From NCBI GenBank assembly GCA_013314735.1, contig JABUFD010000005.1:124001-188000 (forward strand): a DNA stretch of 64,000 bases, in the 5' to 3' direction. Position 1 is the stretch's first letter. Each line of letters opens with the position of its first letter. The notes under the pieces were generated by a model, which saw only the letters and a list, made by a program, of their open reading frames with translations, did no database searches and had not been told where the DNA came from. A program made the translations under genes and the position numbers. Positions 1,201-64,000 of this stretch are shown here, piece by piece. Source of the stretch: Anaerolineae bacterium (lineage in GTDB: Bacteria > Chloroflexota > Anaerolineae > Anaerolineales > Anaerolineaceae).

Positions 1201-1833
1201 TCATTCGAGATGATAAATGAGAAACCGGTCCCCCAGGTCCTGGTAGAGGGCATGCGCGGGTTGTGCCTTGCAAACCAGGGCGACATACAGATCGGCAGTG
1301 GAACCGGCAGCGTTGGCAATCATGAGATAAAACACCGGCAGCAGCCATGCGGCAGGAGCAATTGCGAACAGGAGCAGACATGCCAGGCTGATGACCACAA
1401 ACGGCGCCAGGCAGCTTTTCAGGTAACTGCTGCGGTCAAAATACCAGCCAGGCGCTGCTGCATATGCATAAACGCCCTTGAAGGCGTACTTCGGGCGGGT
1501 CTGGGTGGCAATACGGAAGAACAAGCCATGCAGGGCTTCATGTACTGTGATCATCACCATGGAAACCGCCAGCACAGCCACAATCCATCGCAGTCCTTCC
1601 AACAGGCCAAACTCAAATTCGGCAGGAATTAATGGTACAGCAGGACGAATCCAGCGGAGCAGTTGGAAGTTAATCGCTGCGAAGACCAACAGCAGCCCAA
1701 CGGATGCCAGGTTGAGGAACACGCCCAGGCGGGTATCGGCTTGCAGGTTAATTTCCCGCACCTGAACATACCGCGGCGGGAGGGTGGCCACTGCCCCATT
1801 TTTCCCCCTGACCTGGTTCACCGGCGCTTTCAT
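1201..1833 (-). CDS. DUF3267 family putative zincin metalloprotease, membrane protein
   Basis: 210 residues with about four hydrophobic segments. The motif HEALHG at about residue 99 is the HExxH zinc site of the DUF3267 (site-2-protease-like zincin) family, and a late NAAGSTADLY segment could supply the third ligand region, as the Asp-containing motif does in S2P-type proteases. That is family knowledge; no substrate is known. The ATG overlaps the stop of the upstream PP2C gene by four bases (ATGA), so the two are translationally coupled, and both follow the VWA/FHA gene in one operon. A role in cleaving membrane proteins under phospho-control is only an inference from the neighbourhood. Confidence 0.8.
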   Translation of the reverse strand: MKAPVNQVRGKNGAVATLPPRYVQVREINLQADTRLGVFLNLASVGLLLVFAAINFQLLRWIRPAVPLIPAEFEFGLLEGLRWIVAVLAVSMVMITVHEALHGLFFRIATQTRPKYAFKGVYAYAAAPGWYFDRSSYLKSCLAPFVVISLACLLLFAIAPAAWLLPVFYLMIANAAGSTADLYVALVCKAQPAHALYQDLGDRFLIYHLE

Positions 1834-2801
1834 GTCATCATCAAAAATGCCACCACAGCCAGCACCAGGGGCAGGGCGAGCAGTGCCATGCAGCCAGGTT
1901 TCTTTTTTTGTTGTACGGTTGGCGGTTGCTGCACTTCGACCGTTTCAGTTGGCGGGTCCTGTTTGGGCAGCCCGATGTCTGCCGGGATGCGGAACAGGAT
2001 CAGGGTGATATTGTCATGCCCGCCGCGGCTGTTTGCCATTTGGGTCAGTTCGCTGAGGGCGTCCTGCATCTGTTCACCGGACTCTTCGACGACAGCGAGG
2101 ATTTCCGGTGCATCCACCAGGTCACTGAGGCCATCAGAGCAGATCAGGATCCTGTCACCGCTGAAAAGGCGGGTACCCTGATTGGCTTCTGCCTGCGCAT
2201 CATTTTCCATACCGGTCAGAAACATACGCAGGTCCACTTCAGGTACGCCGGGGCCACCGAGATAGCGCCGGATGACATGCGCGTTGGGGTGTCCGTGCAC
2301 CTGGGCGGGGGTGATCAATCCCACATCCAGCGCATCCTGAATCCAGGTGTGGTCCTTGCTGATCTGCTGGATTTTGTGATCCCGGATGAGGTAGATGCGC
2401 GAATCGCCGACGGTGGCCGTGTACAGGCGGTTGCCCATCAGGCAGGCGATCGAAGCTGTGGATCCCATCCCGGCCCGGCCGGGACCGTCATTGTTAAGGA
2501 CTGCCTGCTTGTTGACTTCGATACTGGCGAGTTCAATTGCATTGACCAGCACATTGGTGAAATCTTCACCATTGGATTCCGCAATCGTATCGGTGATCAG
2601 GTTGACACCGATGGTAGAAGCCACCTCACCTGCCTGGTGTCCACCAACGCCATCACACAGTACAGCCAGCAACACCCGTGCCTGGTTGTGCTCGCTCATC
2701 TGGTAGGCGGTCACCCGGTAATTGTCCTCATTGTTTTTACCAGACATGCCCGCGTGGGTGCTGGCGGCTACCGGAACATGGGATTTTTCCATCTTGATCA
2801 T
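1830..2801 (-). CDS. PP2C-family Ser/Thr protein phosphatase with C-terminal membrane anchor
   Basis: 323 residues. The PP2C metal-binding motifs are visible: GKNNEDNY (Asp26), CDGVGGHQAGE (Asp50), ATVGDSRIYL, CSDGLSDLVD and GGHDNITL. The enzyme should remove phosphate from Ser/Thr with Mn or Mg. A Pro-rich stretch and one hydrophobic helix at the extreme C-terminus anchor it with the catalytic domain in the cytoplasm. An upstream in-frame extension is possible, but the ATG chosen here has AAGGAGAG at about 9 bases and starts 19 bases after the stop of the FHA gene; the longer form would overlap that gene. It lies downstream of an FHA protein (phosphothreonine reader) and overlaps DUF3267, suggesting a linked signalling unit. 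Confidence 0.93.
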   Translation of the reverse strand: MIKMEKSHVPVAASTHAGMSGKNNEDNYRVTAYQMSEHNQARVLLAVLCDGVGGHQAGEVASTIGVNLITDTIAESNGEDFTNVLVNAIELASIEVNKQAVLNNDGPGRAGMGSTASIACLMGNRLYTATVGDSRIYLIRDHKIQQISKDHTWIQDALDVGLITPAQVHGHPNAHVIRRYLGGPGVPEVDLRMFLTGMENDAQAEANQGTRLFSGDRILICSDGLSDLVDAPEILAVVEESGEQMQDALSELTQMANSRGGHDNITLILFRIPADIGLPKQDPPTETVEVQQPPTVQQKKKPGCMALLALPLVLAVVAFLMMT

Positions 2802-2820
2802 GGATTCGGGCTCTCCTTCA

Positions 2821-4755
2821 TCAGGGGGTTGGTGGCGTTTGCAATGTAAACACTGCGGCTTCGAACCGAAATACTTCCTGTCCCAATTGAACCAGATCAC
2901 CATCTTTCAAATGGGCACCCCGCGGGGTGACAGGGGTGTAATTCAACCAGGTGCCAGCCAGGGAATCACAATCTGCGATAATGAATGTGCCCTGAGCATC
3001 ACGTGTGACGCGCGCGTGCCGCGGACTGACAGATGGCTTCTGGAGCAGGATATCCGCGTAGCGTTCATCGCTGCCGATTGTGATTTCCTTATCACTCAAT
3101 ATTATCACTTTTTGGGTGTTGGTGGATGGTATTTCACTGACATAGGTTAACCGTGCGGGACGTGCTTCGGCATATTGTGTGGGCTGCTGCTGGGTGCTGG
3201 TTTGCGGCGCGGCGGTTGCGCGTGGCAGCAGGTCCTGCCGGATGAGTACAGGCTGTGTCAGTGGATCCGTAGACTGGCGCTGCCGTTCCACTTCTTCTTT
3301 TTGGAGGTTGCGGCGGCGACCCGCAAATACTATGACGGCCAGCAGGCTGACCGCAGCAATACCAATCGCCACACCGCTTACCAGGCGTGTATTCGAGAAG
3401 AATGACATCGGCCTCTCTGACACATTCAAGGTCAGAGGCAATGAGGCTGTTTGAGCTGTATAGCCAAGGGTATCGACTACCTCGGCCTGTACATTTACGG
3501 TTCGCGTTTCGGCGGTATCACCGATATACCATTGAAACCGGTCAAACGGGGCCTGCGTGTTCTCCTGTACCACTTCACCATCGATGTATAAACGGCTTGC
3601 CACAATCGGGCGGGGAATGCCATCCGGGAACTCGACAATCAGGTTCAATGTGAGATACTCCGGCTTCAACAGTGGATCAATCGCGTTAGGCGGGATTTCC
3701 CAGTTTTGTTCAACCACGGTGGGCGGGGCCAGGAAAATTGGATTGGGTGCCTCGAGAGTGATTGAAAATTCCTGCTTCGTGCTGTGCAGCTCCAGCGATT
3801 CAAAGAATACATTCACCAAAAATTCGTGCGTACCGGGTTGCGTCACCTGTGAATAATAGCCAACGTTGTAATAGTAGCGTAGTGGCTGCAGGTATTCTTC
3901 GATATCTGGCAGGAATTCCAGGCCCGTATAGATAAAAAAGCTGCCGCCAGTACGCTCTGCCAGTTCCTTCATGATTGGCGCACTTTCCGACTCGGCAGCG
4001 TATGCAGTACCAACCAGCCAGATATTGACCTGAACGCCCAGTGTTTCCGCCTGGTCGATCATCGGGGGGAGGAGCTGGTTCAGGGTATTATTGAGGGCCG
4101 GAGTAATCCACAAAATCGATCGCTTGCCCATTTCCTGCTGCATCGGTTCTCCCGCCAGTTCCAGCGCGGTGGAAAGGCTGTAGAGTGCGGGCAGTTCCGT
4201 CAGGAAATTGGGTTCATAATCTTCAAAGATGTTGGCGTACGCCCGGGGACTGGTATAGTTTGATTCCAGATAATTTTCACCGCCGACAAAGCTGAGGTCA
4301 TCTGGAATGCCCGGCGGCTGCGATTCTGCCCAGGTCTGGATTGCGAACGCGATGCGATCCCAGTTGGTGTACCCCAGGTAGGTGTTCAAGAACATCACAC
4401 CCGGGTTGAGAGCGATGGTAAACTGCAATCCGGGTTCCATCAGCGATACTTCCGCCGCGAGCATCGTCTGCCCATCCTCTACAATTTCGACCGCAGATGG
4501 ATAGAGTGTTGTGATAAAGCGACCACTCTGGTCATAGGCTTCCATCGAAAAGGTTACCAGGGGGAAACGGTCAATGCTGGGTGACCGTACCAGCATGGCG
4601 GCATTCCCCGCACTGACTGTACTCTCATCGCCTTCATCGCCATCTCCGCCGTCCTCCTGTGCCAACACGGAGGCTGATGGCAGCAACAGCGCCATCAGCA
4701 ACAAAAACACCGCTGCCACGGAGATGAGCGATTTTTTTGGAAAGCCGAATTTCAT
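2821..4755 (-). CDS. Membrane protein with signal peptide, VWA-like extracellular domain and cytoplasmic FHA domain
   Basis: 644 residues. A signal peptide (about 1-33) precedes an extracytoplasmic region resembling the VWFA-related family, then two beta-rich stretches, a transmembrane helix near 458-478, and a C-terminal FHA domain at about 550-620 with the signatures IGSDERYADI, SVSPRHARV and the loop before LNYTPV. FHA domains bind phosphothreonine; VWA domains bind ligands through a metal site, but the usual DxSxS is not evident here (NPGVMF occupies that strand), so metal binding is doubtful. The architecture would couple an outside ligand to an inside phosphopeptide. It is the first gene of an operon with PP2C and DUF3267. 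The ATG has a -10-like TACAAT only 7 bases upstream, so the mRNA may be leaderless. Confidence 0.85.
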   Translation of the reverse strand: MKFGFPKKSLISVAAVFLLLMALLLPSASVLAQEDGGDGDEGDESTVSAGNAAMLVRSPSIDRFPLVTFSMEAYDQSGRFITTLYPSAVEIVEDGQTMLAAEVSLMEPGLQFTIALNPGVMFLNTYLGYTNWDRIAFAIQTWAESQPPGIPDDLSFVGGENYLESNYTSPRAYANIFEDYEPNFLTELPALYSLSTALELAGEPMQQEMGKRSILWITPALNNTLNQLLPPMIDQAETLGVQVNIWLVGTAYAAESESAPIMKELAERTGGSFFIYTGLEFLPDIEEYLQPLRYYYNVGYYSQVTQPGTHEFLVNVFFESLELHSTKQEFSITLEAPNPIFLAPPTVVEQNWEIPPNAIDPLLKPEYLTLNLIVEFPDGIPRPIVASRLYIDGEVVQENTQAPFDRFQWYIGDTAETRTVNVQAEVVDTLGYTAQTASLPLTLNVSERPMSFFSNTRLVSGVAIGIAAVSLLAVIVFAGRRRNLQKEEVERQRQSTDPLTQPVLIRQDLLPRATAAPQTSTQQQPTQYAEARPARLTYVSEIPSTNTQKVIILSDKEITIGSDERYADILLQKPSVSPRHARVTRDAQGTFIIADCDSLAGTWLNYTPVTPRGAHLKDGDLVQLGQEVFRFEAAVFTLQTPPTP

Positions 4756-40997: not shown

Positions 40998-42437
40998 TTA
41001 CTGTTGATTGGCAATCAATTGCCGGGCACGGGTCAGTTGCACCTGCGCTTCTGTCATGGAAAACAGTAACAGGTGGGTTCTGGCCTGATCGAGGGCGCCG
41101 TAGATTTCCAAATGAGCGGCAGAGCCGTCAAAATCGGGCATAAAACTGCGGTATTCCTCTGCAAGATCCAGCACCATTTGGGCAAACCCGACAGGCTGCA
41201 AATGTTGTTGTTCCGGCACCTCCATCAGCCAGGTCTGGAATTCATCATTTAGTTCGGCGAGGGTGCGGCCTAACAGTGCCTCATAATTACCGCTGCTGTA
41301 CAGTTGTTTCATCACATCAATGGAGGTTTGCTGGTAAAGAAAATCGTAAAAACAACCCGCGGTATGGAAGTTCACCATATCACCAGATTCGCTCTCCCAG
41401 CGCAAGTCAGAATCTGACAGGGTTGGGAGGATGCCATCATTGAGGTAGGCGATGCAATAACGGCGCAGGGATGGCACACTGGTGTCAATCAGCGCGGCTT
41501 TCTCCTGCGCAATATACATGGCTGCGCCTTCCTTGAGCAATGGGCTATCTGCTGTTCCCAGAACCCGTTCGCCATAGAACCGGGCAGTTTCATAGGTCAC
41601 CAGGCGGAAGAGTTCGGTGGGTGTACCGCTGCCATCAAACACGATAAACACCATGCCGGCATCGGCATAGGAGGCGGAACGGATCAGGTGATCTTGTTCG
41701 AATAATGTTCCGGCTACGTAGAGATCGAAACTGCCAGGTGACAATTCCTGGTACCAGCTTTCGACACTGCTAAGTGCATCCAGGTGGAGCGAAAATAACT
41801 CGGCTTCGGCATTTGCTGGATATTGAGCCGGGTTAACATACAATGTAATCCGCGGTGCGGGATCGTTGGGTGGAATGTAACGCTGTGAAAAAAGCTGCGG
41901 TTTTGGCAGATCGGAAAAATCATAAGCCCAACTGGTGCCGGCATCCGGCTCGGGAACGTAGATCTTCTGCCCGGCCAGAATGGTGTCGCCTGCCATCTGA
42001 TTGGCGGTTCGCAAGGCAGTATCCGCAATTCCAAACACTGCTGCAATACTCTGCACGGTATCGCCCGGGCGAACGGTGTAATAACCATCATCCAGCAGAG
42101 ATTCCTGGTTCTGTGTGGGTGTCAGGGTGGGAGTTTCTGTCGGGGTGGCGGTGACTTCTTCAGGGGTGGCGCTGATCTCCGGTGTGGGTTGGATCGTTTC
42201 GCTGGGAGCGGCCATCAGGGTCAGGGCGGCCAGTTGCGTTTGGGTCAGCTCAAATGCCTGCTGCGTGCCCTGAACTGCAGCATCCACGTCGACGATCGGC
42301 GTTGGCGTTTGCGGAGGTGGTGCCAGGAACAGCTGCCAGACAAAAAAGCCGTTGACCAGGAACAGGACAAAATTTGCAGCCAAAATCAGGATGAGCAAGA
42401 TAAATAGTGATCGTTTGAGGTCCTGGTTATTTTTCAT
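40998..42437 (-). CDS. Membrane-anchored LysM protein with degenerate peptidase-MA-like domain
   Basis: 479 residues: an N-terminal membrane helix (about 9-34), a Thr/Pro linker (PTPTETPTLTPT), a LysM domain (YYTVRPGDTVQSIA ... GQKIYVPEP, near 115-165), and a C-terminal region like gluzincin peptidase MA family: FRLVTYETARFYG lines up with the usual HExxH, but reads YETAR; LLKEGAAMYIAQ lines up with the W-L-x-EG-x-A-x-Y strand. Zinc ligands are missing, so it is probably not catalytic. AGGAGAGG precedes the ATG. It follows the PP2C gene by 35 bases. Confidence 0.78.
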   Translation of the reverse strand: MKNNQDLKRSLFILLILILAANFVLFLVNGFFVWQLFLAPPPQTPTPIVDVDAAVQGTQQAFELTQTQLAALTLMAAPSETIQPTPEISATPEEVTATPTETPTLTPTQNQESLLDDGYYTVRPGDTVQSIAAVFGIADTALRTANQMAGDTILAGQKIYVPEPDAGTSWAYDFSDLPKPQLFSQRYIPPNDPAPRITLYVNPAQYPANAEAELFSLHLDALSSVESWYQELSPGSFDLYVAGTLFEQDHLIRSASYADAGMVFIVFDGSGTPTELFRLVTYETARFYGERVLGTADSPLLKEGAAMYIAQEKAALIDTSVPSLRRYCIAYLNDGILPTLSDSDLRWESESGDMVNFHTAGCFYDFLYQQTSIDVMKQLYSSGNYEALLGRTLAELNDEFQTWLMEVPEQQHLQPVGFAQMVLDLAEEYRSFMPDFDGSAAHLEIYGALDQARTHLLLFSMTEAQVQLTRARQLIANQQ

Positions 42438-42472
42438 GGGGTTCCTCTCCTGGCTGCAGCGGCTGGCATATT

Positions 42473-44182
42473 TCAGGGGATAGCAAGCCAGGTGCCGTTT
42501 TTGTCCTGGCAAAGTGAATAATCAGCCTGGTTGATTTCAATAAACCAACCGGTCAGAATGATATTGTTGTTTTCGATTTCCTGGGCATCTTCACAGGTGA
42601 TGCTTTCACCTTCTCCTTTGCATATGCGGTACAGGAATGGGGCGGCGGCATCATATGTAAGTCCATAGATGTCGCGGATGATCAGTCCAAGAGAATCGCC
42701 GGATTGGACTTGTGCCAGGCAAACCCCTTTTGTTGGGGTTTGCGGCAGAGCTTCTTCCACCGTTTCCGCTTCTGCCTGTCCGGGGTCTGATGTTGGCAAT
42801 TCCTGGGTCGGAAGGGATTCGTTTTCGGGCGGGTTTTGGTCTGGCAATGGTTCATCAACAGCCATGTCGGCGATTTCGGGGGGGATGGAGGCATCTTGCG
42901 GCGCATTGCGCAGGGCGAAGAACCTTCCGCCGAATGTAAATGCGAGGATCGCCAACAGTACGAAAATCATAGTGGAGAGAATGATCAGCAGGATATAACT
43001 GCGGACACTGATCCGCTGGATAAAACTGGTTTTCTCAGGCTGCGGTGGGCTTTGCGGCGTTATCCGTGCCGCCGGTGAGGCCGGTCTTGGAATGGCCTGT
43101 GTTTGCACATTCGCCAGGCGCATGGAATCCACAGTAACGGTCTGGGTTTGTTCTGCCTCTGATGGGTGTTTGCCCAAATCCCCCGTATCTTCCAATTCCT
43201 CATCGGTGGCAGCCTGGTTGATGCCCGGGATGGAAAGTGCGTCAGCGGCACGCATGGGGGAAACGGTCGGGTCAGGTTTGAACAACCCTTGCTGGGGTTT
43301 CGCTTCAGCCATACGGGCTTCCTGTTCCGGGCTGCGTGCCACCATGGTGAGGGGGTCACGAACAACAGTTTCCATGTCCACCGCCGCGGGACGGGTGCCG
43401 TTATCCTCGGTCATGGGGAGGGTTTCAGTAACGCCATCGACACAGATCATCAGTACAGTTATGTTATCCTGTCCACCGCTTTTGCGTGCGTATTGAATAC
43501 CATTGTTCACAACCTGTTCGGGTGTGCCAGACAGGGCGAGTTTCTGAATGATCGGCAGCTCTTCCGCGTAGCGGCATAGACCATCTGATGCCAGCAACAG
43601 CAAGTCACCGGCCTGAAGCTTTTCGATGAAAACATCAGCCTTGAACACCTCATGCCCGCCGAGGGAACTGGTTAACTGGTTTTTCACCCGGGCGGTTTTT
43701 GCCTGTTCTTCTGTCAGTACGCCGTTGCGGATCATCTCATTGACCAGGTTGTGATCCTGCGTCAATTGGCGTACCTGCTGGTTTCGGATCAAATAGGCAC
43801 GGCTATCACCGACATTGACCAGGGTTAATTCATCCGCATTGATGGCTGCAGCCACCATGGTGGTGGCCATGCGCGCCTGCGCATTCTGCCGGATGTATTC
43901 CACCAGGGCGATGTTGGCATGTTTCATCCCTGCTTTAATGCGCTGCCAGGGTTTTAACAACGGTTGGTGATAGTACGTGTGAAGGACTTTGAGTGCGGCG
44001 TATTTGGAAGCCACTTCACCGGTGGCAGCACCGCCCACGCCATCTGCGACAATGTACAGGCGACCAAGCTGTTCCACAATTTGCGGATCCCCTGGTTCAA
44101 AGTATGTCAGGTAATCCTCATTATTTTTGCGAACCAACCCAACGTTGGAATCACCCCAAACAGTCAGTTTCAGTTCTGGCAT
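42473..44182 (-). CDS. Transmembrane PP2C phosphatase with extracytoplasmic LysM-like domain
   Basis: 569 residues. A full PP2C catalytic domain (about 1-245; RKNNEDYL, VADGVGGAATGE, VNVGDSRAYLI, LASDGLCRYAE, GGQDNITV) is followed by a long linker, a transmembrane helix (about 390-415), a Pro/Glu-rich stretch and a C-terminal LysM-like domain (VQSGDSLGLIIRDIYG, near 485-530). The layout mirrors eukaryote-like Ser/Thr kinases with external wall-binding domains, here on the phosphatase. AAGGAAGAG precedes the ATG. Cotranscribed with the LysM/peptidase-like protein. Confidence 0.92.
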   Translation of the reverse strand: MPELKLTVWGDSNVGLVRKNNEDYLTYFEPGDPQIVEQLGRLYIVADGVGGAATGEVASKYAALKVLHTYYHQPLLKPWQRIKAGMKHANIALVEYIRQNAQARMATTMVAAAINADELTLVNVGDSRAYLIRNQQVRQLTQDHNLVNEMIRNGVLTEEQAKTARVKNQLTSSLGGHEVFKADVFIEKLQAGDLLLLASDGLCRYAEELPIIQKLALSGTPEQVVNNGIQYARKSGGQDNITVLMICVDGVTETLPMTEDNGTRPAAVDMETVVRDPLTMVARSPEQEARMAEAKPQQGLFKPDPTVSPMRAADALSIPGINQAATDEELEDTGDLGKHPSEAEQTQTVTVDSMRLANVQTQAIPRPASPAARITPQSPPQPEKTSFIQRISVRSYILLIILSTMIFVLLAILAFTFGGRFFALRNAPQDASIPPEIADMAVDEPLPDQNPPENESLPTQELPTSDPGQAEAETVEEALPQTPTKGVCLAQVQSGDSLGLIIRDIYGLTYDAAAPFLYRICKGEGESITCEDAQEIENNNIILTGWFIEINQADYSLCQDKNGTWLAIP

Positions 44183-46174: not shown

Positions 46175-48130
46175 TTATGGTTCATACAGAACGAAATTAT
46201 CAAAGGCAAAGGTCACAAATTGGTCGGCATCGTACAGTTCGATGCCGATGCCCATTTCACCGAAACTGAGGGTGTTATCCTGCAAGGTCTCGATATAGAC
46301 TCCATTAAAATAGACATCGAACCAGTCCTCATATCCGTACACACCGATACTATTCCAGTCATCAGGAATGATATTCGAGTTATACGTCCACTCCTTCAGG
46401 GTGTACCAGGTATCACCGTCTTTGCGGTAGAAGGCATAACTCTGGTTGGCATCGCTGATGGTGAGGAAGTAATACTTGTCGTTGTCGTAATCCATCCGGA
46501 ACAGCAAGCCTGCATCAGAATTGGTTGGCCCAGTAATGCGCTTGATGCTGACCTGGGCGGCAAAGTGGCCCACCGATTGGCGCAGGGGGAACTGTTCGTA
46601 CGTCATCACACTGCGTTTACTGGTCATATCCCAGCGCAGAGTGTCATTGACAAAGTAGCGTGTATGGTACTTGTATTCATTGTCTGTCGGGTCCATGAAC
46701 CAGCCGGTGTTGGTCGTGAACTGGTCGCAGTAGATTGGCGGGAGCGAGGAAAAGGCGGAAATGGCGAAGGAATCTGCACACGCCTGCAATGGGTCTGAGG
46801 AAGCCTCGGTGGGGGAAAGCGCTTCCGGGGTCTGGGAGGGAAGATCCGTCCAGGTTGGTTCCAGGGTGGGCTGATCGGTGGCTGTTGGACGTTTGGTGTT
46901 GGTGGGGATCAACGTGCGGGTTGCTGTGGGTGTGCTGGTGGTAAAGGGATTGATTGCATCGGGCAGTAAGTCAAACACGACGAGAAATACACCACAAACA
47001 ACGAGCAATAGCAGCAGGATTCCCGCGACCAAAGCCACAATACACCCCTTTGACATCCCCTTTTTGGCAGGTACTGACGGGGGAGATGCAGGAATTTGTG
47101 CTGACCGGAATGCATCACCGGGTGGTTGAGCGGGATAAGGTTGGCCTGTCTGGTTCAGCGGTACAATGGGTGGTGGTTGCTGAGTATAACGTGGCTGTTG
47201 TTGAGGAGGCTGGGTGTAGGTCGGTGGGGTGAATACCGCGCTTTCTGCCTGGGTGGGGGGTGTTTGAGCGGGGTAATTCACCGGTTGCTGCATTGTGCCT
47301 GGAACGGGTAAGGTGGCGATCTGTTCAAGCACATGCACCAGTTCTTCCATGGTCTGGTAGCGGTCTGCAGGGCGTTTCTGCAGTGCCTTTTGCAATACAG
47401 TGCTGACAAACGGGGGTAAGCTGGGAACATATTGGCGGGGGTCGGGCAGCGGTTCAGTGACTTGTTTCCATACCACCGCCATGGGGGTATCGGCTGTGAA
47501 TGGCTTACGGCCAGTCACCAGCTCATAGAGCACCAGGCCGAGTGAATAGATATCGGCACGGCGGTCGATTGCTCCGCCCTGACCCTGTTCCGGTGCCATG
47601 TATTCGGGGGTGCCAATGCCCACGCCCATCTGGGTTAATTGAGGCTGGTCCGTTTCCAGCACCTTGGCAATACCGAAATCTGAAAGCATTGGTTCGCCAT
47701 TCCGCTGCAAGAGGATATTGGCGGGTTTCACATCGCGGTGGACAATGTCTTGCTTATGGGCATATCCCAACGCTTTGGCAATCGGGATCAGCAACCGGGC
47801 TGCTTCCTGATATGCAATCGGCGAACCCATTCGGTTCTTAAGTGTACCGCCGTCGATAAATTCCATCACCAGATATGGCTGCCCATCCTGTTCACCGTAA
47901 TCATGGACGTGAACAATATTGGGGTGTGAAAGTTTGGCCAGCGCTTTGGCCTCACGCTCGAAACGTTTGAGAAATTGTTCTGAAGTTTGCTGCTGGGTGG
48001 TAATCACCTTCAGCGCCACATGGCGCTCGAGGCGGGTATCAAACGCCTTATAGACAGTTGCCATTCCGCCTTCCCCCAACTGTGCGACGATCTGATACCG
48101 GTCGATTTGTTTTCCAATTAAAGCTGGCAT
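46175..48130 (-). CDS. PknB-like transmembrane Ser/Thr protein kinase with extracellular beta-sandwich domain
   Basis: 651 residues. The kinase domain (1-270) has GEGGMATVYKAFD (glycine loop), HVALKVI (Lys), HRDVKPANILL (catalytic loop) and DFGIAKV. A Pro/Gln-rich juxtamembrane stretch (280-355), transmembrane helix (about 362-388), a Thr/Pro linker, and an extracytoplasmic domain of about 200 residues (SIKRITGPTNSDAGLLFRMDYDNDKYYFLT...) resembling LamG/3-keto-disaccharide hydrolase-like sandwiches follow. It should sense an outside ligand and phosphorylate inside. GGAGG precedes the ATG. The PP2C enzymes and FHA proteins in this window are natural partners. Confidence 0.95.
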   Translation of the reverse strand: MPALIGKQIDRYQIVAQLGEGGMATVYKAFDTRLERHVALKVITTQQQTSEQFLKRFEREAKALAKLSHPNIVHVHDYGEQDGQPYLVMEFIDGGTLKNRMGSPIAYQEAARLLIPIAKALGYAHKQDIVHRDVKPANILLQRNGEPMLSDFGIAKVLETDQPQLTQMGVGIGTPEYMAPEQGQGGAIDRRADIYSLGLVLYELVTGRKPFTADTPMAVVWKQVTEPLPDPRQYVPSLPPFVSTVLQKALQKRPADRYQTMEELVHVLEQIATLPVPGTMQQPVNYPAQTPPTQAESAVFTPPTYTQPPQQQPRYTQQPPPIVPLNQTGQPYPAQPPGDAFRSAQIPASPPSVPAKKGMSKGCIVALVAGILLLLLVVCGVFLVVFDLLPDAINPFTTSTPTATRTLIPTNTKRPTATDQPTLEPTWTDLPSQTPEALSPTEASSDPLQACADSFAISAFSSLPPIYCDQFTTNTGWFMDPTDNEYKYHTRYFVNDTLRWDMTSKRSVMTYEQFPLRQSVGHFAAQVSIKRITGPTNSDAGLLFRMDYDNDKYYFLTISDANQSYAFYRKDGDTWYTLKEWTYNSNIIPDDWNSIGVYGYEDWFDVYFNGVYIETLQDNTLSFGEMGIGIELYDADQFVTFAFDNFVLYEP

Positions 48131-55827: not shown

Positions 55828-56025
55828 ATTCTGCTCCTGGATGGGAACCATCGAACCTGTTTTTAAATTATACGGTAAATTTACAGGTATGAATCGACCT
55901 CTTTTCTGTCAGTGGGAAATGAGTGAATGAAACAGGTTAATTTCTTATATAATAAAGGGAATAGAAAACATTCCAATGCCAATCTCGCCATTCTCTGGCA
56001 ATTCACACAAATATGGATGGACATT

Positions 56026-57144
56026 ATGCAAACCAACCAAACCAACACCTGGCTCCTGGCAATTTGGGTTCTGTTGTTGAGCCTGATGATCACGGCATGC
56101 ACCAACGGGCGTCCCAATGATGAGGCTGCCATTGATGCCACCCGTGCGCTGATCGAAACCTATGTGGCGGGAACGCAAACCGCCAATGCTCTACCGCAGG
56201 ATACACCCACCGCACGGCCAACACGCACCGAACTACCCACCTGGACACCGAAGCCTGCTGCAACCGCGGAGTTGGTGGCGCCGACAGCGATCCAGCACCT
56301 GGTGGTTCCTGTGGGGCCGGGCCTGGCGTGGAGTGAGATTGCGGACACCTTCAGCGGAAATACTGCTGCAGAGAAACGAGCACCGGAAGGGGATTTATAT
56401 ACCAGCCAGCAGTTATTGGAACGGCCCTTCAACCAGGCGATGGCCTACGTGCCGCAGGTTGACATTCGCGGAGCTGAGTTGGCAAAGGACAACCAATTTA
56501 TTTATGTAACAATTAACCTGGACCAGGTTGTGCAGCAGTTTGATGCTTCATATGGGGTCGAACTGGATGTAGACGCGGATGGACGCGGGGATTACCTGGT
56601 ATGGGCAGTCCAACCCGATTCCGATTTGTGGACCATTGATAAGGTGTTCATTTACACTGACACCAATCATGATGTCGGTGGTGCCAATGTGCTGGCTTCT
56701 GACGCCCCCAACGGCGGTGATGGCTTCGACGGGTTGCTGTTTTCGGCCTCCCAATTTGACGACCCTGACCTGGCCTGGGCACGGATTAACCCGGATCGCG
56801 GCGGTAGTATCCAGTTTGCCTTCAAAGACAGCTTCATCGAAGGTGGTGCCTCCTTCTTCTGGCGGGTGTGGGCTGATGCCGGTCTACAAAACCCCGCTGC
56901 CTTTTATTACCATGATTTCTATGAATTCAGCCATGCGGGATCACCCTTGGCGGATTCTGAAGCATACCCGCTGGGGACGGTTTTCGCGCTGGATAATACC
57001 TGCCGGATGCCGTTCCAGATTGCCAATGATGGTTTTGAACCTGGCTTGTGCGGGAATGGGGGCATGTTACCGACATCTACGCCGGCCCCTGATGTATCGC
57101 TGACAAAATTGCCAGTGATTCCCACGATTAAATTGACGCCCTGA
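56026..57144 (+). CDS. Lipoprotein-like envelope protein, unknown function
   Basis: 372 residues from the ATG chosen. A hydrophobic signal ends with MITACTNG (lipobox-like, Cys near 25), followed by Thr/Pro linker (PTARPTRTELPTWTPKP) and a globular domain with Asp-rich loops (DVDADGRGD, YTDTNHDVGG) that suggest calcium binding. The start is uncertain; another in-frame ATG lies three codons upstream. Upstream lies TATAAT. Two FHA-ABC transporter genes follow on the same strand. Confidence 0.65.
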   Translation: MQTNQTNTWLLAIWVLLLSLMITACTNGRPNDEAAIDATRALIETYVAGTQTANALPQDTPTARPTRTELPTWTPKPAATAELVAPTAIQHLVVPVGPGLAWSEIADTFSGNTAAEKRAPEGDLYTSQQLLERPFNQAMAYVPQVDIRGAELAKDNQFIYVTINLDQVVQQFDASYGVELDVDADGRGDYLVWAVQPDSDLWTIDKVFIYTDTNHDVGGANVLASDAPNGGDGFDGLLFSASQFDDPDLAWARINPDRGGSIQFAFKDSFIEGGASFFWRVWADAGLQNPAAFYYHDFYEFSHAGSPLADSEAYPLGTVFALDNTCRMPFQIANDGFEPGLCGNGGMLPTSTPAPDVSLTKLPVIPTIKLTP

Positions 57145-57241: not shown

Positions 57242-60200
57242 ATGGGAATCCAATCGCCAGTCCTATCCATTTGCCCAAACCAGGGGCAATGGTCTTCGCG
57301 GGTGTTAAAACCCGGTAAATGGATCATTGGCCGTTCCTCCCATGCAGACATCAGCCTGGAAGATGCCAGCCTGTCACGCGAACATTGCTCCATCGAAATT
57401 GCCCCGGAGGCAGTATTTCTCACTGACCTTGGCTCTGCCAATGGAACATTTGTTAACAATACAGCCCTGGCTCCCTTCCAGCCGTTGGCGCTGGCGTCGG
57501 GGCAGATGTTCCGGATTGGGATGCACCATGCCCGGATTGACTGGTGTGTTTCACCCGGCAGCCCGGAAGATCCCATCGTGGAATCCACCGATTTGGCGGT
57601 GGATGATATGTCCACTGGTGGTGCCGGGGAGGCTAACCAACCCGGCAGGCAGGATGTTCTGCCTGCCCAAAACCATGCAGAACTCATTCTGCAATATCAT
57701 CATGGGAACGGGGTGTGGGAGGAAATTTGCTTGCTGCCAGGTGAAACCATCATCGGCCGGGCTGAAGACGCGGATTTGCGGTTGTATGATCCTCAGGTTT
57801 CCCGCCGCCATGCGCGGTTGACACTGGCAGAAAACGGAACGGCCACAGTGATGGACCTGGGTTCCGCCAATGGAACACAGCTGGATGGCGAGCCTTTGAA
57901 GCCGAGAGATATGGTTCCATTTCAAGCAGGACAGTTGCTGATGATCGCCGGCTGCCGCCTGCGGATTGACAACCGTACTGCACCGTTAAACCTGTCTGCG
58001 CCTGACCTGCCGGCTGAAGAACCATGTGCCGAGAGTACCAGCCTGGCTGTTTCCCGACCTGTTGAAACAGGATTGCTGCTGCGCTACCGGAAGGTGGACC
58101 AGCCGTGGTGTGAATTGCCGTTGGCTGACGGCCGGTACCAGATTGGCCGATCGGAAGAGGTGGAAATCCAGCTGGATTCCCACATGGTATCGCGGAAGCA
58201 TGCTGAAATCCGGGTGGAAACCGGGCAGGTGTGGGTGACGGATCTGAATTCCCGCAATGGCATCCTGGTGGCCGGGACGCGCCTGGGGGCAAATGTACCG
58301 AAGTCTGTATGCCTAACAGAACGGTTTTCAATCGGTGAATTTGTGTTTGAACTTTGCGAAGGTTTAATGCCGGCACAGGCGGTACCGTCTGCCATTGGAT
58401 TGCCTGAGGATCAAGTCCCTGTGGAAAAAACGGTGATTGGGTCCCAAATGGGGATCGATCTGGCAGCCATGTTTGCAGATTCCGCTCCTGCGCCGGTCAA
58501 CCTGGCTGGGCATGATCGTGTGACAATCGGCCGGGCATCGGATAACATGATCCGGTTTGATCACCCCCTCGTCAGCCGTTACCATGCCGTGATCGAGCGC
58601 ATGGGAACACGTACCAGGATCACCGACCTGCACAGCGCCAACGGGATTTACCTGAATGGCGGCATTGTCGAAGGACAGGGCTGGCTGAAGCAGGGCGACC
58701 TGATCAAGATCGGGCCGTACCTGATTACCTTTACTGGCAATGAATTGCGTCCATCCAGTGAACAGTCCTACACCATTGATGTGGTTGGGCTGCAAAAATG
58801 GGTCGCGCGTGAGGTCAACCTGTTGAAAGAAATTTCGCTCAACATCGGCCAAAATGAGTTTGTCGCGTTGGTGGGGATGAGCGGGGCCGGGAAAAGTACC
58901 CTGATGGATGCGATCAATGGATTCCGACCGGCAACGGATGGCAAAGTGTATATCAACGGGTTGGACCTGTACCAGAACTATAACCAGTTCCGTGATGAAA
59001 TCGGGAATGTGCCACAGCGTGATATTGTCCACATGGAATTAACGGCGGAGCAAGCGCTTTCGTATGCGGCTGAATTGCGCATGCCGCCGGACGCTTCGGA
59101 AGAGGACCGGCAACGGGCAGTGGCCGACACGCTGGAGGACCTGGGATTGACGTACCGCAAGGATTTGCAAATATCACGGCTCTCCGGCGGACAGATCAAG
59201 CGTGTGTCAATCGGGGTGGAGTTGTTGACCAAGCCGCGGCTGTTCTTCCTCGATGAACCCACCAGCGGCCTGGACCCTGGCACGGAATATGAAATGATGA
59301 AACTGCTGCGCCGCCTGGCGGATCAGGGGCGTACCATCATGCTGATCACCCATGCCACCAAGAATGTGATGTTTTGCGACAAAACCATCATACTGGCAAA
59401 CGGCGGGCACCTGGCCTTTTACGGTCCACCGGAAGATGCATTGGTGTATTTTGACCAATTCCGCAACCATCGGGAACGCCTGGAAAAGGAGATGGAATTT
59501 GACGACATTTACCGCATTCTGGAAGACCCGGAACGCGGCACCCCCGCGGATTGGCGTGAACGCTACTTGAAAAGCGAATATGCCCGTTACACCATCAGCA
59601 GTGGCCGGGTTGCGGCAGCTGCGGCAGAACTATCCGCCGAGTCCGGTGCGAGCAGAGTGGCTGGCCAGCGAATATCTGGCGCACGCCAGCTGGGAATACT
59701 CTCCCGCCGTTACCTGCGCTGCATGGTGCAGGATAAAGTCTCTTTGATTCTGACCCTGTCACTGGCACCGATCCTGGGTTTGATGAACTTTATCTGGGGC
59801 AGTAAGCTGTTTGATCCTGTGGTGGGCAATGCGGCAAAAACGATGGGTGTGTGGTTTGCAGTCACCGTGATGGGAATCCTGGTGGGGTATATGGGCAGTA
59901 TCCAGGAACTGGTTAAGGAAAAAGCGATCTACAAACGGGAACGGGCGGTGGGGTTAAAAATTACTTCGTACGTTCTTTCCAAAATCTGGGTGGGGGGCGC
60001 ACTGGCCTTTTACCAGGCGTTCTTCATTCTGCTGTTCGCGGTGCTGCTGGTCAAACCGTTGGTGACAGAACCTTCCGGCTATGTCAGCATGTATTTCACG
60101 CTGGTGTTGGTGATTTTCAATGCCTTCATCCTCGGCCTGGTGATTTCAGCACTGAGTGAAAATGCCAATACAGCACAGTTAATCATGATTGCCGCTTTTG

Positions 60201-61156
60201 TGCCACAGCTGCTGCTGGCGGGAGTGCTGCAGCCGTTGCACATGATTGTCGGCGGTGAGTTGATCAGCCCGATTGTGGAAGCACGCTGGAGCTTTGAGAA
60301 TTTTGTCAACGCCACCGGCATGGGGGATCCCCTTGTAAATGACCCGTGCTGGTCCGAATATGACCGCTCCCAGCGCAACAGCCTCACCAACGAACAGAAG
60401 GACGCGCAGTGCGTGTGCATGGGGGCGGGATTATTCAAAAATTGTGCCCGGATTCCCGGCATCTTATCCGATGATTTTTATGACGCAGAAGCGCAGCTGG
60501 TACTGGCGATGGACAGACCCCAGCAGCCGGTGGCGCCGGAACGGCTGCCAACCCCAACCCCGCGCAGCACCCCCACCACCATTGCCAGCCCGACCTTCAT
60601 GCCTTCTCCCACCTACCTGCCCACCCCGACCGCCTGGGCAACATTGACGCCGCGCCCGGTGTGTTCACAACCGGGGCAGGGCAATTGCGTGCAATTCCAG
60701 GCGCAGCAGGAGGAAGCCGGACGCCAGATGATGGAATACCAGGAGACCCGCAGCGCGCAATTTGAGGATTACCGGGATGATACGGAAGAACAGTTCCAAT
60801 CCTACTGGGAAAACGTCGGCGACCAGATGGAGGGCTACAAGGTTGAGATCAATGATCAGATTGATACTTTTGCAGATGAAGAGCGTGACAATGTAGATGC
60901 CTATGCCCAGGAAAATATGGATCTGTTCGAAGGATACCAGGTGGAAATGGAAACCTACAGTGAAGACCTGAGCTATTATGAGCGCAGCCGGCAGGAAGCC
61001 ATTTCGTCAGCTGAGGCGATCATCAGCATCTTGTGGGATGATTATGGAAGCGCTTTCCGCGGCGGGGTCTTGCCCAGGATGGGATATATTACCGCCATTA
61101 CCGTGGTCCAATTCATTGTGCTGTTGGTGCTGATGAAACGGAAGGATACCGTGTAA
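57242..61156 (+). CDS. ABC transporter with four N-terminal FHA domains (ABC2 permease fused)
   Basis: 1304 residues. FHA domains at about 25-95, 165-235, 295-365 and 420-490 each show the GRxxxxxI, SRxHA and NG-type signatures. An ABC ATPase follows (Walker A GMSGAGKST near 545, LSGGQIKR, Walker B FFLDEPTSG near 668), then an ABC2/ABCG-like permease (about 820-1010), an extracytoplasmic loop with Cys residues, a TPTPRSTP linker (1100-1140) and an acidic coiled stretch (1150-1245), and a last helix. It resembles mycobacterial Rv1747, which has two FHA domains and is phospho-regulated. AGAGGAGA lies before this ATG; an upstream GTG is less likely. Confidence 0.95.
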   Translation: MGIQSPVLSICPNQGQWSSRVLKPGKWIIGRSSHADISLEDASLSREHCSIEIAPEAVFLTDLGSANGTFVNNTALAPFQPLALASGQMFRIGMHHARIDWCVSPGSPEDPIVESTDLAVDDMSTGGAGEANQPGRQDVLPAQNHAELILQYHHGNGVWEEICLLPGETIIGRAEDADLRLYDPQVSRRHARLTLAENGTATVMDLGSANGTQLDGEPLKPRDMVPFQAGQLLMIAGCRLRIDNRTAPLNLSAPDLPAEEPCAESTSLAVSRPVETGLLLRYRKVDQPWCELPLADGRYQIGRSEEVEIQLDSHMVSRKHAEIRVETGQVWVTDLNSRNGILVAGTRLGANVPKSVCLTERFSIGEFVFELCEGLMPAQAVPSAIGLPEDQVPVEKTVIGSQMGIDLAAMFADSAPAPVNLAGHDRVTIGRASDNMIRFDHPLVSRYHAVIERMGTRTRITDLHSANGIYLNGGIVEGQGWLKQGDLIKIGPYLITFTGNELRPSSEQSYTIDVVGLQKWVAREVNLLKEISLNIGQNEFVALVGMSGAGKSTLMDAINGFRPATDGKVYINGLDLYQNYNQFRDEIGNVPQRDIVHMELTAEQALSYAAELRMPPDASEEDRQRAVADTLEDLGLTYRKDLQISRLSGGQIKRVSIGVELLTKPRLFFLDEPTSGLDPGTEYEMMKLLRRLADQGRTIMLITHATKNVMFCDKTIILANGGHLAFYGPPEDALVYFDQFRNHRERLEKEMEFDDIYRILEDPERGTPADWRERYLKSEYARYTISSGRVAAAAAELSAESGASRVAGQRISGARQLGILSRRYLRCMVQDKVSLILTLSLAPILGLMNFIWGSKLFDPVVGNAAKTMGVWFAVTVMGILVGYMGSIQELVKEKAIYKRERAVGLKITSYVLSKIWVGGALAFYQAFFILLFAVLLVKPLVTEPSGYVSMYFTLVLVIFNAFILGLVISALSENANTAQLIMIAAFVPQLLLAGVLQPLHMIVGGELISPIVEARWSFENFVNATGMGDPLVNDPCWSEYDRSQRNSLTNEQKDAQCVCMGAGLFKNCARIPGILSDDFYDAEAQLVLAMDRPQQPVAPERLPTPTPRSTPTTIASPTFMPSPTYLPTPTAWATLTPRPVCSQPGQGNCVQFQAQQEEAGRQMMEYQETRSAQFEDYRDDTEEQFQSYWENVGDQMEGYKVEINDQIDTFADEERDNVDAYAQENMDLFEGYQVEMETYSEDLSYYERSRQEAISSAEAIISILWDDYGSAFRGGVLPRMGYITAITVVQFIVLLVLMKRKDTV

Positions 61157-61350
61157 ATTATCGTTGGGAATTTTGGCAGGAAAGCGATTGCCATTTTCCC
61201 CGATTGGTCTTAGAATTTATGTAGGGCATTGCAGGGGGATTCTGGAAGATGGTAAGTGGATTCACCTTACCTATCATTTCCATCCAACAGTACAAAGAAC
61301 AAATCCAGTCATGTGTTCACTCACGTAGTGTTTCAAATCGGAGGAGCGTT

Positions 61351-64000
61351 ATGGCACACATTCAATCCGTGCGGTTGTTCTATCACCGGCAAGGCGAAGA
61401 TTGGCAGGAGAAGGCATTGGCAGTCGGCACTTACGTCGTCGGCCGTTCCTCTGATGCTGATATCCAGTTTGATGCATCCAACATCTCGCGCCGCCATTTT
61501 CAACTGGCGGTTTCGGACGAAGGTGTGCAGATTATCGACCTGGGCTCATCCAACGGCACTCATGTGGAAGGAAAACCGATCACTGCCAATGTGCCGTTTG
61601 ACCTGCAATCTGGCCAACCGATCCGGGCTGGTCTGTACGAAGCCTACGTGGAATGGCAAACAACCGCGGTTGTTTCAGAATATGTAGAAGAGGCCACCAG
61701 TTTCCGCCCGCCGGAACCGTTGATGGCGACCCAGGTGGAATCCGAAGAAGGTGAAGCAACCCAACTGGATGCCCCGGCTGATGGACGGCTGGAAACACCT
61801 GCTGTCGTCTACCCGGTACTGACGGTGACGATGGTGGATGGCACGCTCAGTGAAAAAGTTCTGCCGGATGGACAATATGTCATTGGACGCACCTCTGCAG
61901 CAGATATCCAGATTGCGGAAACCAAGGTGTCACGGCTGCACGCACGTATCACCGTCCGGGATGGCCTTTGCACAGTGGAAGATGTGGGTTCATCCAATGG
62001 TACTATGTTGAATGGTACTCCTCTGACACCGCATGTGCAGGTGCCGTTTTCGGCCGGCCAGGTATTGATGATTTGCGGCTGCCGTTTGCAGGTTACTGCT
62101 GTGGAAGGTGCAGAGGTTCCGCATAAAGAGAAGCCGGTGGAGGCCACCCGGATTGAAACTGTTGAAGAAGCTGCGGGAACTGTGATGGAAGGCGTGATCG
62201 CCGAAGCTGCCACAGCCCTTGATGGCGGGATGCCGGAACAGGCAACTGCCCTGGAGATGGGGCTGGAAGCGGAACGCACCGCGCTGGGTGAAATGCCGGC
62301 GGATTGGAAGGACCGTACCAACCTGGATGCGATGGCGCCTGTGGTCCCGCTAGGCGACACTTCCGGCGGTGTGGTGCTGCGTTTCCGCCGCGGTGGAGGT
62401 GAGTGGGACCAGATCACCCTGCGGCCGGGCGAGTACGTGCTGGGCCGCTCGGAACAGGCAGACTTAAGTATGCCTGACCACCAGATCTCTCGGCGGCATG
62501 CCAAATTGATCGTGGATGCCGCCAGCGGTGTTTTCCTGATGGACCTGGGTTCTGCCAACGGCACCCAGATCAACGGCAGTCCGCTTCGGCCGCGCGAGCC
62601 GGTGCCTTTTGGCAAAGACCAGATCGCTTCCATCGGCGGATACCAGATGCAGGTGGTGGAATTAACCGGCGACAGCCGCACCCTGCTTGAAGTTGCCAAG
62701 ACCGAAATTGGTGAGGTGATGGTTGGCGCCACCCAGGTGGTATCCGTCAAAGCACCAGTGTTACGCTATCGCCAGGGCAGCGCGCCCTGGCAGGAATTCC
62801 AACTGGTTAACGGTGAACAGGTGCTCGGTCGCTCCAGTGAAGCGCATTTGCGCATCCCTTCCGGCACGATTTCCCGACAGCACGCCCGCCTATTCGTACA
62901 GGAGGGCCAGGTATGGATCACCGACCTGGCTTCCAAGAACGGTATAACGATTAACGGGCAGCGCATCGCGCCGGAACGCCCGATGGCACTTCCGATGGGG
63001 CAGACGTTCACCGTGGATGATTTCGAATTCCAGCTGCTGGGTGGGGCCGAACAACCCGCTGGTTATGATGCCACACGCATATCGGGCAATGTCGGTGCAT
63101 GCATCCTGGAACCGGGCAAGATGGATATGCTGTTGAATATGCCGGCAGCGGTCGGTGCTGGTGACCAGACGATGATTGGCGCTGAGATGGGAATTGATAT
63201 GGCCATGCTCGGGGCGCAGCAAGCCCAGGCACCGATCAACCTGGCGGGACATGACCGCGTAACGATTGGCCGCGGTTCGGATAACATGATCACACTGGAC
63301 CATCCGCTGGTCAGCCGCTACCATGCTGTGATCGAACGCATGGGCACGCGCACACGCATCACTGACCTGCACAGTGCCAATGGAGTGTTTGTCAATGGCG
63401 AGGCGGTTGACACACAAGCCTGGCTGAAACAGGGCGATGCGATCAAGATCGGCCCGTACCTGATCCATTTCACCGGTAACGAACTGCGTCCTTCCGCCCA
63501 GCAATCTTACAATATCGACGTGCTGGGGCTACAAAAATGGGTTACCAAGGACCTGAACCTGCTGAAGGAAATTTCGCTCAATGTCGGCCAAAATGAATTC
63601 GTGGCACTGGTGGGGATGAGCGGTGCCGGGAAAAGCACCCTGATGGATGCGATCAATGGCTTCCGCCCCGCGACACACGGCCAGGTATTTATTAATGGGG
63701 TGGATCTGTACCAGAATTACAACCAGTTCCGCGATGAGATCGGCAACGTGCCGCAGCGCGATATTGTTCATATGGAGCTGACAGCGGAGCAGGCACTGGA
63801 TTATGCCGCTCAACTGCGCATGCCGCCGGATGCCAGCGCGGGTGATCGCAGGGCTGCGGTTAATGAAACCCTGGATGACCTGGGTCTGACCTTCCGCAAA
63901 GATGTGCTGATTTCGCGCCTTTCCGGCGGTCAATTGAAACGCGTATCGATTGGCGTTGAATTGCTGACCAAGCCGCGGCTGTTCTTCCTCGATGAACCCA
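61351..64000 (+). CDS. ABC transporter with five N-terminal FHA domains (truncated by window end)
   Basis: 883 codons are visible and no stop is reached. FHA domains centre on GR motifs at about residues 29, 177, 363, 491 and 638. The ABC ATPase starts near 720 with Walker A GMSGAGKST near 756; the window ends within Walker B. From the last FHA onward it is closely similar to the upstream neighbour, so the pair is a tandem duplication with one extra FHA. GGAGG is just before the ATG. The gap of about 194 bases between the two genes holds no other gene or clear terminator. Confidence 0.95.
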   Translation, partial: MAHIQSVRLFYHRQGEDWQEKALAVGTYVVGRSSDADIQFDASNISRRHFQLAVSDEGVQIIDLGSSNGTHVEGKPITANVPFDLQSGQPIRAGLYEAYVEWQTTAVVSEYVEEATSFRPPEPLMATQVESEEGEATQLDAPADGRLETPAVVYPVLTVTMVDGTLSEKVLPDGQYVIGRTSAADIQIAETKVSRLHARITVRDGLCTVEDVGSSNGTMLNGTPLTPHVQVPFSAGQVLMICGCRLQVTAVEGAEVPHKEKPVEATRIETVEEAAGTVMEGVIAEAATALDGGMPEQATALEMGLEAERTALGEMPADWKDRTNLDAMAPVVPLGDTSGGVVLRFRRGGGEWDQITLRPGEYVLGRSEQADLSMPDHQISRRHAKLIVDAASGVFLMDLGSANGTQINGSPLRPREPVPFGKDQIASIGGYQMQVVELTGDSRTLLEVAKTEIGEVMVGATQVVSVKAPVLRYRQGSAPWQEFQLVNGEQVLGRSSEAHLRIPSGTISRQHARLFVQEGQVWITDLASKNGITINGQRIAPERPMALPMGQTFTVDDFEFQLLGGAEQPAGYDATRISGNVGACILEPGKMDMLLNMPAAVGAGDQTMIGAEMGIDMAMLGAQQAQAPINLAGHDRVTIGRGSDNMITLDHPLVSRYHAVIERMGTRTRITDLHSANGVFVNGEAVDTQAWLKQGDAIKIGPYLIHFTGNELRPSAQQSYNIDVLGLQKWVTKDLNLLKEISLNVGQNEFVALVGMSGAGKSTLMDAINGFRPATHGQVFINGVDLYQNYNQFRDEIGNVPQRDIVHMELTAEQALDYAAQLRMPPDASAGDRRAAVNETLDDLGLTFRKDVLISRLSGGQLKRVSIGVELLTKPRLFFLDEP

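Follow-up and report, generated by a model that had tools for sequence, protein, structure and literature searches.

Two adjacent genes in the window (the whole stretch of 64,000 nucleotides analysed here) encode proteins that, judged by sequence, are ABCG-type half-exporters with the architecture of the mycobacterial protein Rv1747, carrying four (copy A) and five (copy B) FHA domains. The pair extends a known exporter design by degrees: FHA counts form a graded series, of which its arrays are the long end, and the commonest count in the clade is three. New here are the series itself, from one FHA domain to five on a single related core, a threonine motif of the linkers, the dating of the pair and a clade-wide four-cysteine module. 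Rv1747 is the best-worked example that we found of phosphorylation of an FHA linker making a bacterial ABC exporter condense or cluster. The natural series, with threonine tags in the longer-array clade, makes the idea of valence directly testable, and the cysteine module and a lipoprotein neighbour provide handles on the exporter.

Copy A (57242–61156, forward strand; 1304 residues) consists of four FHA domains, an ABC ATPase, an ABC2 permease, a long extracytoplasmic loop and a last transmembrane segment. The in-window part of copy B (61351–64000, forward strand) covers five FHA domains and most of the ATPase. The whole gene is complete in the contig (61351–65955 in window numbering, 1534 residues; L020:5351-9955; C1), and beyond the window it goes on to encode the permease, a long loop like that of copy A and a final hydrophobic segment; the contig ends 265 bases past its stop. 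Both starts (ATG at 57242 and at 61351) have a GGAG-type ribosome-binding site in front, as read from the sequence. By Pfam, copy A matches FHA in four stretches as well as ABC_tran and ABC2_membrane; copy B, as far as it lies in the window, matches FHA in five stretches and ABC_tran. In copy A, the ATPase (58823–59266, forward strand) has all of its Walker A, LSGGQ, DEP and ITH motifs and the ABC2-type permease core lies at 59687–60247 (forward strand, Pfam). The order FHA, ATPase, permease on one chain was established by Pfam for copy A and by a local core profile with NCBIfam for copy B, and a simple hydropathy scan gave six hydrophobic segments in each. Hence, A and B have the features of an ABCG-type half transporter, i.e. 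an ATPase before the permease, the ATPase motifs and six transmembrane segments, and the kinship proposed in the initial annotation is upheld for the architecture of Rv1747, whose domain order both copies keep. The NCBIfam model TIGR00955 (pigment precursor permease) scored 198.8 and 191.7, below its cut-off of 736.35. The best solved sequence matches of the ABC part are transporters such as ABCA3, ABCA4 and ABCG2, the last over residues 539–1002; A and B share the ATPase-then-permease order of ABCG2-type half transporters, but add the FHA array and have a larger loop before the last transmembrane segment. An AlphaFold2 model of the ABC half with the ectodomain was too low in confidence for use (mean pLDDT 36.3). 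Across the whole genome, full-length matches to the ABC half are A and B only; the other 95 matches cover just the ATPase part, each at 99.6 bits or less.

The FHA domains are genuine throughout. The FHA model (PF00498) gave 19 hits over the whole genome, nine of these within A and B, and all nine score 57.8–73.5 bits, above the gathering cut-off of 20.7. All lie on the forward strand. In copy A they are FHA1 (57320–57520, an extra N-terminal unit), FHA2 (57746–57946), FHA3 (58136–58297) and the membrane-proximal FHA4 (58520–58714); in copy B, FHA1 (61432–61632, also an extra unit), FHA2 (61876–62073), FHA3 (62434–62616), FHA4 (62821–63012) and the membrane-proximal FHA5 (63259–63453). In Rad53, R70, S85 and N107 touch the phosphothreonine, and H88 and G69 stabilise (PMC5549992). 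When 269 FHA domains of the exporter family were aligned, the pocket Arg, Ser and Asn proved to be present in nine of the nine A and B domains, and the G and H likewise. The count of four and five in the initial annotation, which had named loss of the phospho-binding residues as a point on which it could fail, is therefore confirmed by Pfam, by the whole-genome search and by pockets that are whole. A FHA4 also matches the solved Rv1747 FHA chain 6cah (E 5.8e-7). It is 84% identical to B FHA5, whereas all other A–B unit pairs are just 24–51% identical. Clade-wide, this position is also the most conserved, with a mean pairwise identity of 0.53 compared with 0.34–0.42 at the remaining positions.

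We then placed the arrays among their relatives. With the ABC half as query, homologues at E ≤ 1e-60 turned up in genomes sampled from the class (57 of 396), the order (107 of 400) and the phylum (80 of 400); the three samples overlap. We scored 105 FHA-ABC proteins, from 100 fetched stretches (L036-L135) and the window's own contig; the stretches are part of the homologue hits, and all counted relatives belong to the phylum. Four proteins cut N-terminally by stretch ends were excluded. Among the 101 with a complete N-terminus, three have one FHA domain, 39 have two, 49 have three, nine have four and only copy B has five, in a sample that is uneven because the stretches were chosen by core similarity or, for at least eight (L116-L123), by a long frame. 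In L039, a masked run in a linker may conceal one FHA unit. Three matched frames in the homologue listings exceed 1350 residues: copy B (1576), a two-FHA protein extended by AAA and TPR (1434) and a four-FHA protein (1357). The initial annotation had allowed that arrays of this size might be common in the class. This holds in part: three-FHA arrays are the commonest and four-FHA arrays recur, but five were seen in copy B only. A literature search by title, thin on subscription papers, retrieved no exporter with three or more FHA domains and nothing joining Anaerolineae with forkhead-associated. Three-FHA Anaerolineae exporters share the four-cysteine module, the Thr/Pro stretch and the upstream lipoprotein (L096) with our pair, and differ in having three FHA domains and a single exporter gene at the locus; in one of them (MAG Anaerolineae bacterium isolate Ch132, JABLXC010000022.1, L034) the core is 56% identical. 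Two FHA-ABC genes per locus also occur in L040, L079 and L080, in tandem in L040 and L080; paired copies are therefore recurrent in the family.

On the core tree, which was quick, has SH-aLRT support only and carries a long-branch warning, A and B are sisters (SH-aLRT 100) within a group of seven rows, in which the four complete members besides them each have three FHA domains. On the same tree array length changes 11 times, and the four-FHA label requires at least five gains or losses (counted by starred branches). Pairwise identity and a tree of the FHA units gave consistent counterparts. The last FHA of the relatives has its counterparts in A4 and B5, the middle one (FHA2) of near relatives in A3 and B4, and the first one of near relatives (three-FHA proteins in the case of A2) in A2, B2 and B3. 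A1 and B1 are sisters (99/90). A 13-row set (98/92) unites A1, B1, A2, B2 and B3 with FHA1 of the eight nearest relatives tested; FHA1 of six further relatives falls elsewhere on the tree, outside this set. All extra units thus look to be of the first-FHA type of near relatives. B3 lies outside A2+B2 (95/86). Taken at face value, this implies an ancestor with five units, one of them since lost from copy A, a reading for which the 86 columns of the unit tree are too few for firmness.

The duplication is not recent. The initial annotation had taken the likeness of the last FHA and ATPase parts as a mark of recent duplication, and this claim fails: from the last FHA to the end, four-fold silent sites of A and B are 46% identical (n = 315), where composition alone predicts 30%. 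Silent-site identity stays low throughout the gene, at 28–60% in blocks of at most 100 codons from the last FHA on (18–46 sites each) and 22–41% in the four earlier FHA pairs compared, which also rules out gene conversion. Silent change is near saturation while 489 of 607 residues are the same in the last FHA and core. Hence, the likeness of the proteins reflects constraint, not youth.

The linkers between the FHA domains carry a threonine motif. In the long clade (57 proteins, 122 linkers), T-hyd-hyd-[GADE] occurs 70 times against 9.6 ± 2.8 in shuffled linkers, and its Ser version five times against 9.0. After reduction to 70% identity, a slightly narrower pattern is present in 17 of 53 linkers against 3.6 ± 1.8 (Ser: 3 against 3.2), and at 60% identity the motif is found in nine of 23 linkers against 1.4, with six of ten proteins having it and four lacking it. 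The linkers of the other 48 proteins (two-FHA and others) show no enrichment of the strict motif (2 against 2.7). Part of the Thr bias may reflect a preference of beta-strands, since the Thr form also exceeds the Ser form inside the FHA domains (37 against 7 in 20,556 residues), although linkers are about six times denser. A looser pattern, [DEQN]-x-T-x-hydrophobic, occurs 51 times against 21.4, with its Ser form raised less (30 against 19.7). Copy B has 22 Thr in 292 linker residues, including a Thr-rich part between FHA2 and FHA3 (62137–62292, forward strand) where three T-A-L units 11 residues apart are candidate phosphothreonine tags. Copy A has six Thr in 168, and a single one fits the strict motif (VEKTVIG). 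FHA domains are highly specific for phosphothreonine (PMC3146460), and a Thr motif therefore fits tagging by a kinase and reading by FHA domains. The motif suggests that these exporters have built-in phosphothreonine ligands, with the linker threonines as candidate sites.

The extracytoplasmic part holds a mark of the clade. The loop after the fifth hydrophobic segment has four cysteines near its start, then a Thr/Pro stretch, a helical-looking region and the last segment. In copy A (forward strand), these are a module C-x20-C-x-C-x8-C (60290–60484), a Thr/Pro-rich linker (60536–60661) and a helical-looking region with 11-residue repeats (60722–60994). The clade pattern is C-x(17-34)-C-x-C-x(8-14)-C, with neighbours that are mostly CW, CxCMG and PG. 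The four cysteines occur in every long-clade member whose tail reaches 180 residues or more (51 of 51, A and B included), a count that omits six members with shorter tails (two of them cut or incomplete); outside the clade, none of 48 proteins has four cysteines in that stretch. A profile of the module found 18 places in 15 of 61 genomes, all 18 within exporter hits. By its sequence distribution the module is a mark of the clade, and it is probably disulfide-bonded. At E ≤ 1, Pfam gave no family for any of the ten profile rows, and the PDB gave no chain for the profile itself. The tail is as unusual as the initial annotation had it, but copy A is not alone in having it: each of its parts recurs in copy B, and the four cysteines are found in 49 further clade members. 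The 11-residue period in the helical part was reached by none of 2000 shuffles in either copy. As a hallmark of the clade, a hendecad stalk is ruled out: lag 11 exceeds lag 7 in just 20 of 50 long-tailed members. Directly upstream of copy A lies a lipoprotein-like gene (55927–57144, forward strand) with a lipobox-like start read from the sequence. Its product matches no Pfam or NCBIfam family, and its AlphaFold2 model (mean pLDDT 34.6) is too low in confidence for use. In L096, L097 and L100 a homologue occupies the position just before the exporter; L099 has none and L098 is cut there, so that the gene is kept in four of the five loci of the subclade with upstream DNA.

The evidence for a kinase is stronger across the family than at the window locus. 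A same-strand kinase gene lies within 5 kb of 48 of the 105 family proteins (27 of 57 in the long clade, 21 of 48 others), counts that are lower bounds because many of the flanks scanned (717 kb in total, by BLAST from one kinase) are shorter than 5 kb. About 4.6 kinases would be expected in 717 kb at the density of the window's genome, with the reservations that density in other genomes may differ and that the window genome was counted by Pfam and the family by BLAST. In the window's own subclade, none of seven proteins has a kinase within 5 kb of scanned, partly cut flank. No kinase adjoins A or B, where the downstream side of copy B covers 265 bases only. The nearest, a Hanks-type Ser/Thr kinase (46175–48130, reverse strand) whose membership in the module is only putative, is 9.1 kb from copy A on the opposite strand. 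The genome has 26 kinase hits by Pfam, and the chance that any of them falls within a 9.2 kb span is about 6%. Its proximity by itself is thus weak evidence for a partner of the exporter. Of the multi-site control by this kinase that the initial annotation envisaged, control by a kinase is plausible and the specific pairing is unsupported. Two PP2C-type phosphatase genes are also present in the window (42476–44182 and 1833–2903). The latter adjoins an FHA-bearing frame (both within 1833–3084, reverse strand; FHA hit 2881–3084), and the former, which has a long C-terminal part, adjoins a LysM-domain gene (both within 41001–44182, reverse strand).

Rv1747 indicates how such an exporter could work. 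It has two FHA domains with a disordered linker between them; after treatment with the kinase PknF its N-terminal part condenses at a lower concentration, an effect undone by the phosphatase PstP, and the exporter forms nanoclusters (PMC9312465). Mutants have altered phosphatidylinositol mannosides (PIM) (PMC5549992). Like Rv1747, A and B have FHA domains and linkers, ATPase and permease on one chain, in a family where kinase neighbours are common. They differ in the number of FHA domains, in the long loop with four cysteines and in gene context, since Rv1747 is in an operon with pknF. Our best explanation, which we hold with as much doubt as belief, is that A and B are exporters of an envelope component tuned by a kinase through multivalent self-association. 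They would work as homodimers or as an A–B heterodimer, with the FHA arrays in the cytoplasm as readers of phosphothreonine. Threonines in the linkers between FHA domains would be phosphorylated by at least one Hanks kinase and then bound by FHA domains of the same or neighbouring molecules. The array could thereby serve as a multivalent sticker through which exporters are clustered or gated, reversibly through a phosphatase, with longer arrays giving a higher valence and a dose that can be graded. The conserved membrane-proximal FHA probably has a structural or gating role beside the ATPase, while the outer ones evolve fast. On the outer side, the cysteine module and the helical stalk may make contact with the upstream lipoprotein or with the envelope, and the cargo would most likely be a lipid or glycolipid envelope component. 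GarA and OdhI, which match the FHA domains in sequence, are controlled by their own N-terminal phosphothreonine and offer a model for self-binding between linker and FHA, although each is a single soluble FHA domain without a transporter.

A real possibility, on balance doubtful, is that the arrays are docking platforms where each FHA recruits its own client among other phosphothreonine proteins (cargo-making enzymes, stress proteins or kinases) and linker threonines are minor. The divergence of all A–B unit pairs except A4–B5 is as expected for different ligands, FHA I of Rv1747 binds Rv2623 through pT237 (PMC5549992), and the 26 kinase hits of the genome also speak for this reading. The enrichment of the Thr motif in the linkers, however, suggests ligands within the exporter itself. 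We think it rather unlikely that the clade is a distinct Anaerolineae exporter family in the fuller sense, i.e. with a database-unmatched four-cysteine ectodomain and its own phosphothreonine ligands, with cluster size set by kinase activity, the response tuned by gain of FHA domains and Thr tags, and A and B forming a nine-FHA heteromer. That the arrays expanded neutrally, with FHA domains duplicated by chance, one or two of them doing the work and the others adding nothing, would suit the repeated changes of array length and the single type of the extra units; it is improbable given that all nine pockets are whole despite near-saturated silent sites. It is very improbable that the proteins are mainly mechanotransmitters linking cytoplasmic phospho-signals through the ABC core to the extracytoplasmic stalk and the lipoprotein, as the large ectodomain with its conserved cysteines, the helical repeats of A and B and the conserved lipoprotein gene might suggest, since the ABC2 permease match, the complete ATPase motifs and the best solved matches are those of transporters.

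Leads on the cargo come from neighbouring genes in a sister subclade. There, an AMP-binding/ketosynthase megasynthase family occurs at nine exporter loci (L050:8808-14000, L051:3-4157 and seven more; one member, from L050, was scanned), which hints at a lipid or polyketide cargo in that subclade. A different lipoprotein-like family adjoins the exporter at 15 loci of this subclade. We rejected a shared origin of these downstream lipoproteins and the one upstream of copy A, for which the profile match spans just 41 columns around the signal region. Some relatives carry additional parts. The 1425-residue protein of L073 (3417-7691, reverse strand) has AAA and TPR ahead of two FHA domains and the ABC exporter; a kinase fusion was ruled out, as the extra part matches AAA and TPR. 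A two-FHA exporter in L122 (4528-8436, forward strand) has an HlyD-like membrane-fusion part at its C-terminus. Elsewhere in the genome of the window, a group of genes (L022:1684-13152) resembles a type VII secretion locus and appears to encode a vWA-FHA protein, a WXG100-like protein, a partial kinase, a 1508-residue FtsK/EssC-like ATPase and a two-FHA protein, where FHA and kinase were identified by search and the other names by reading the sequence.
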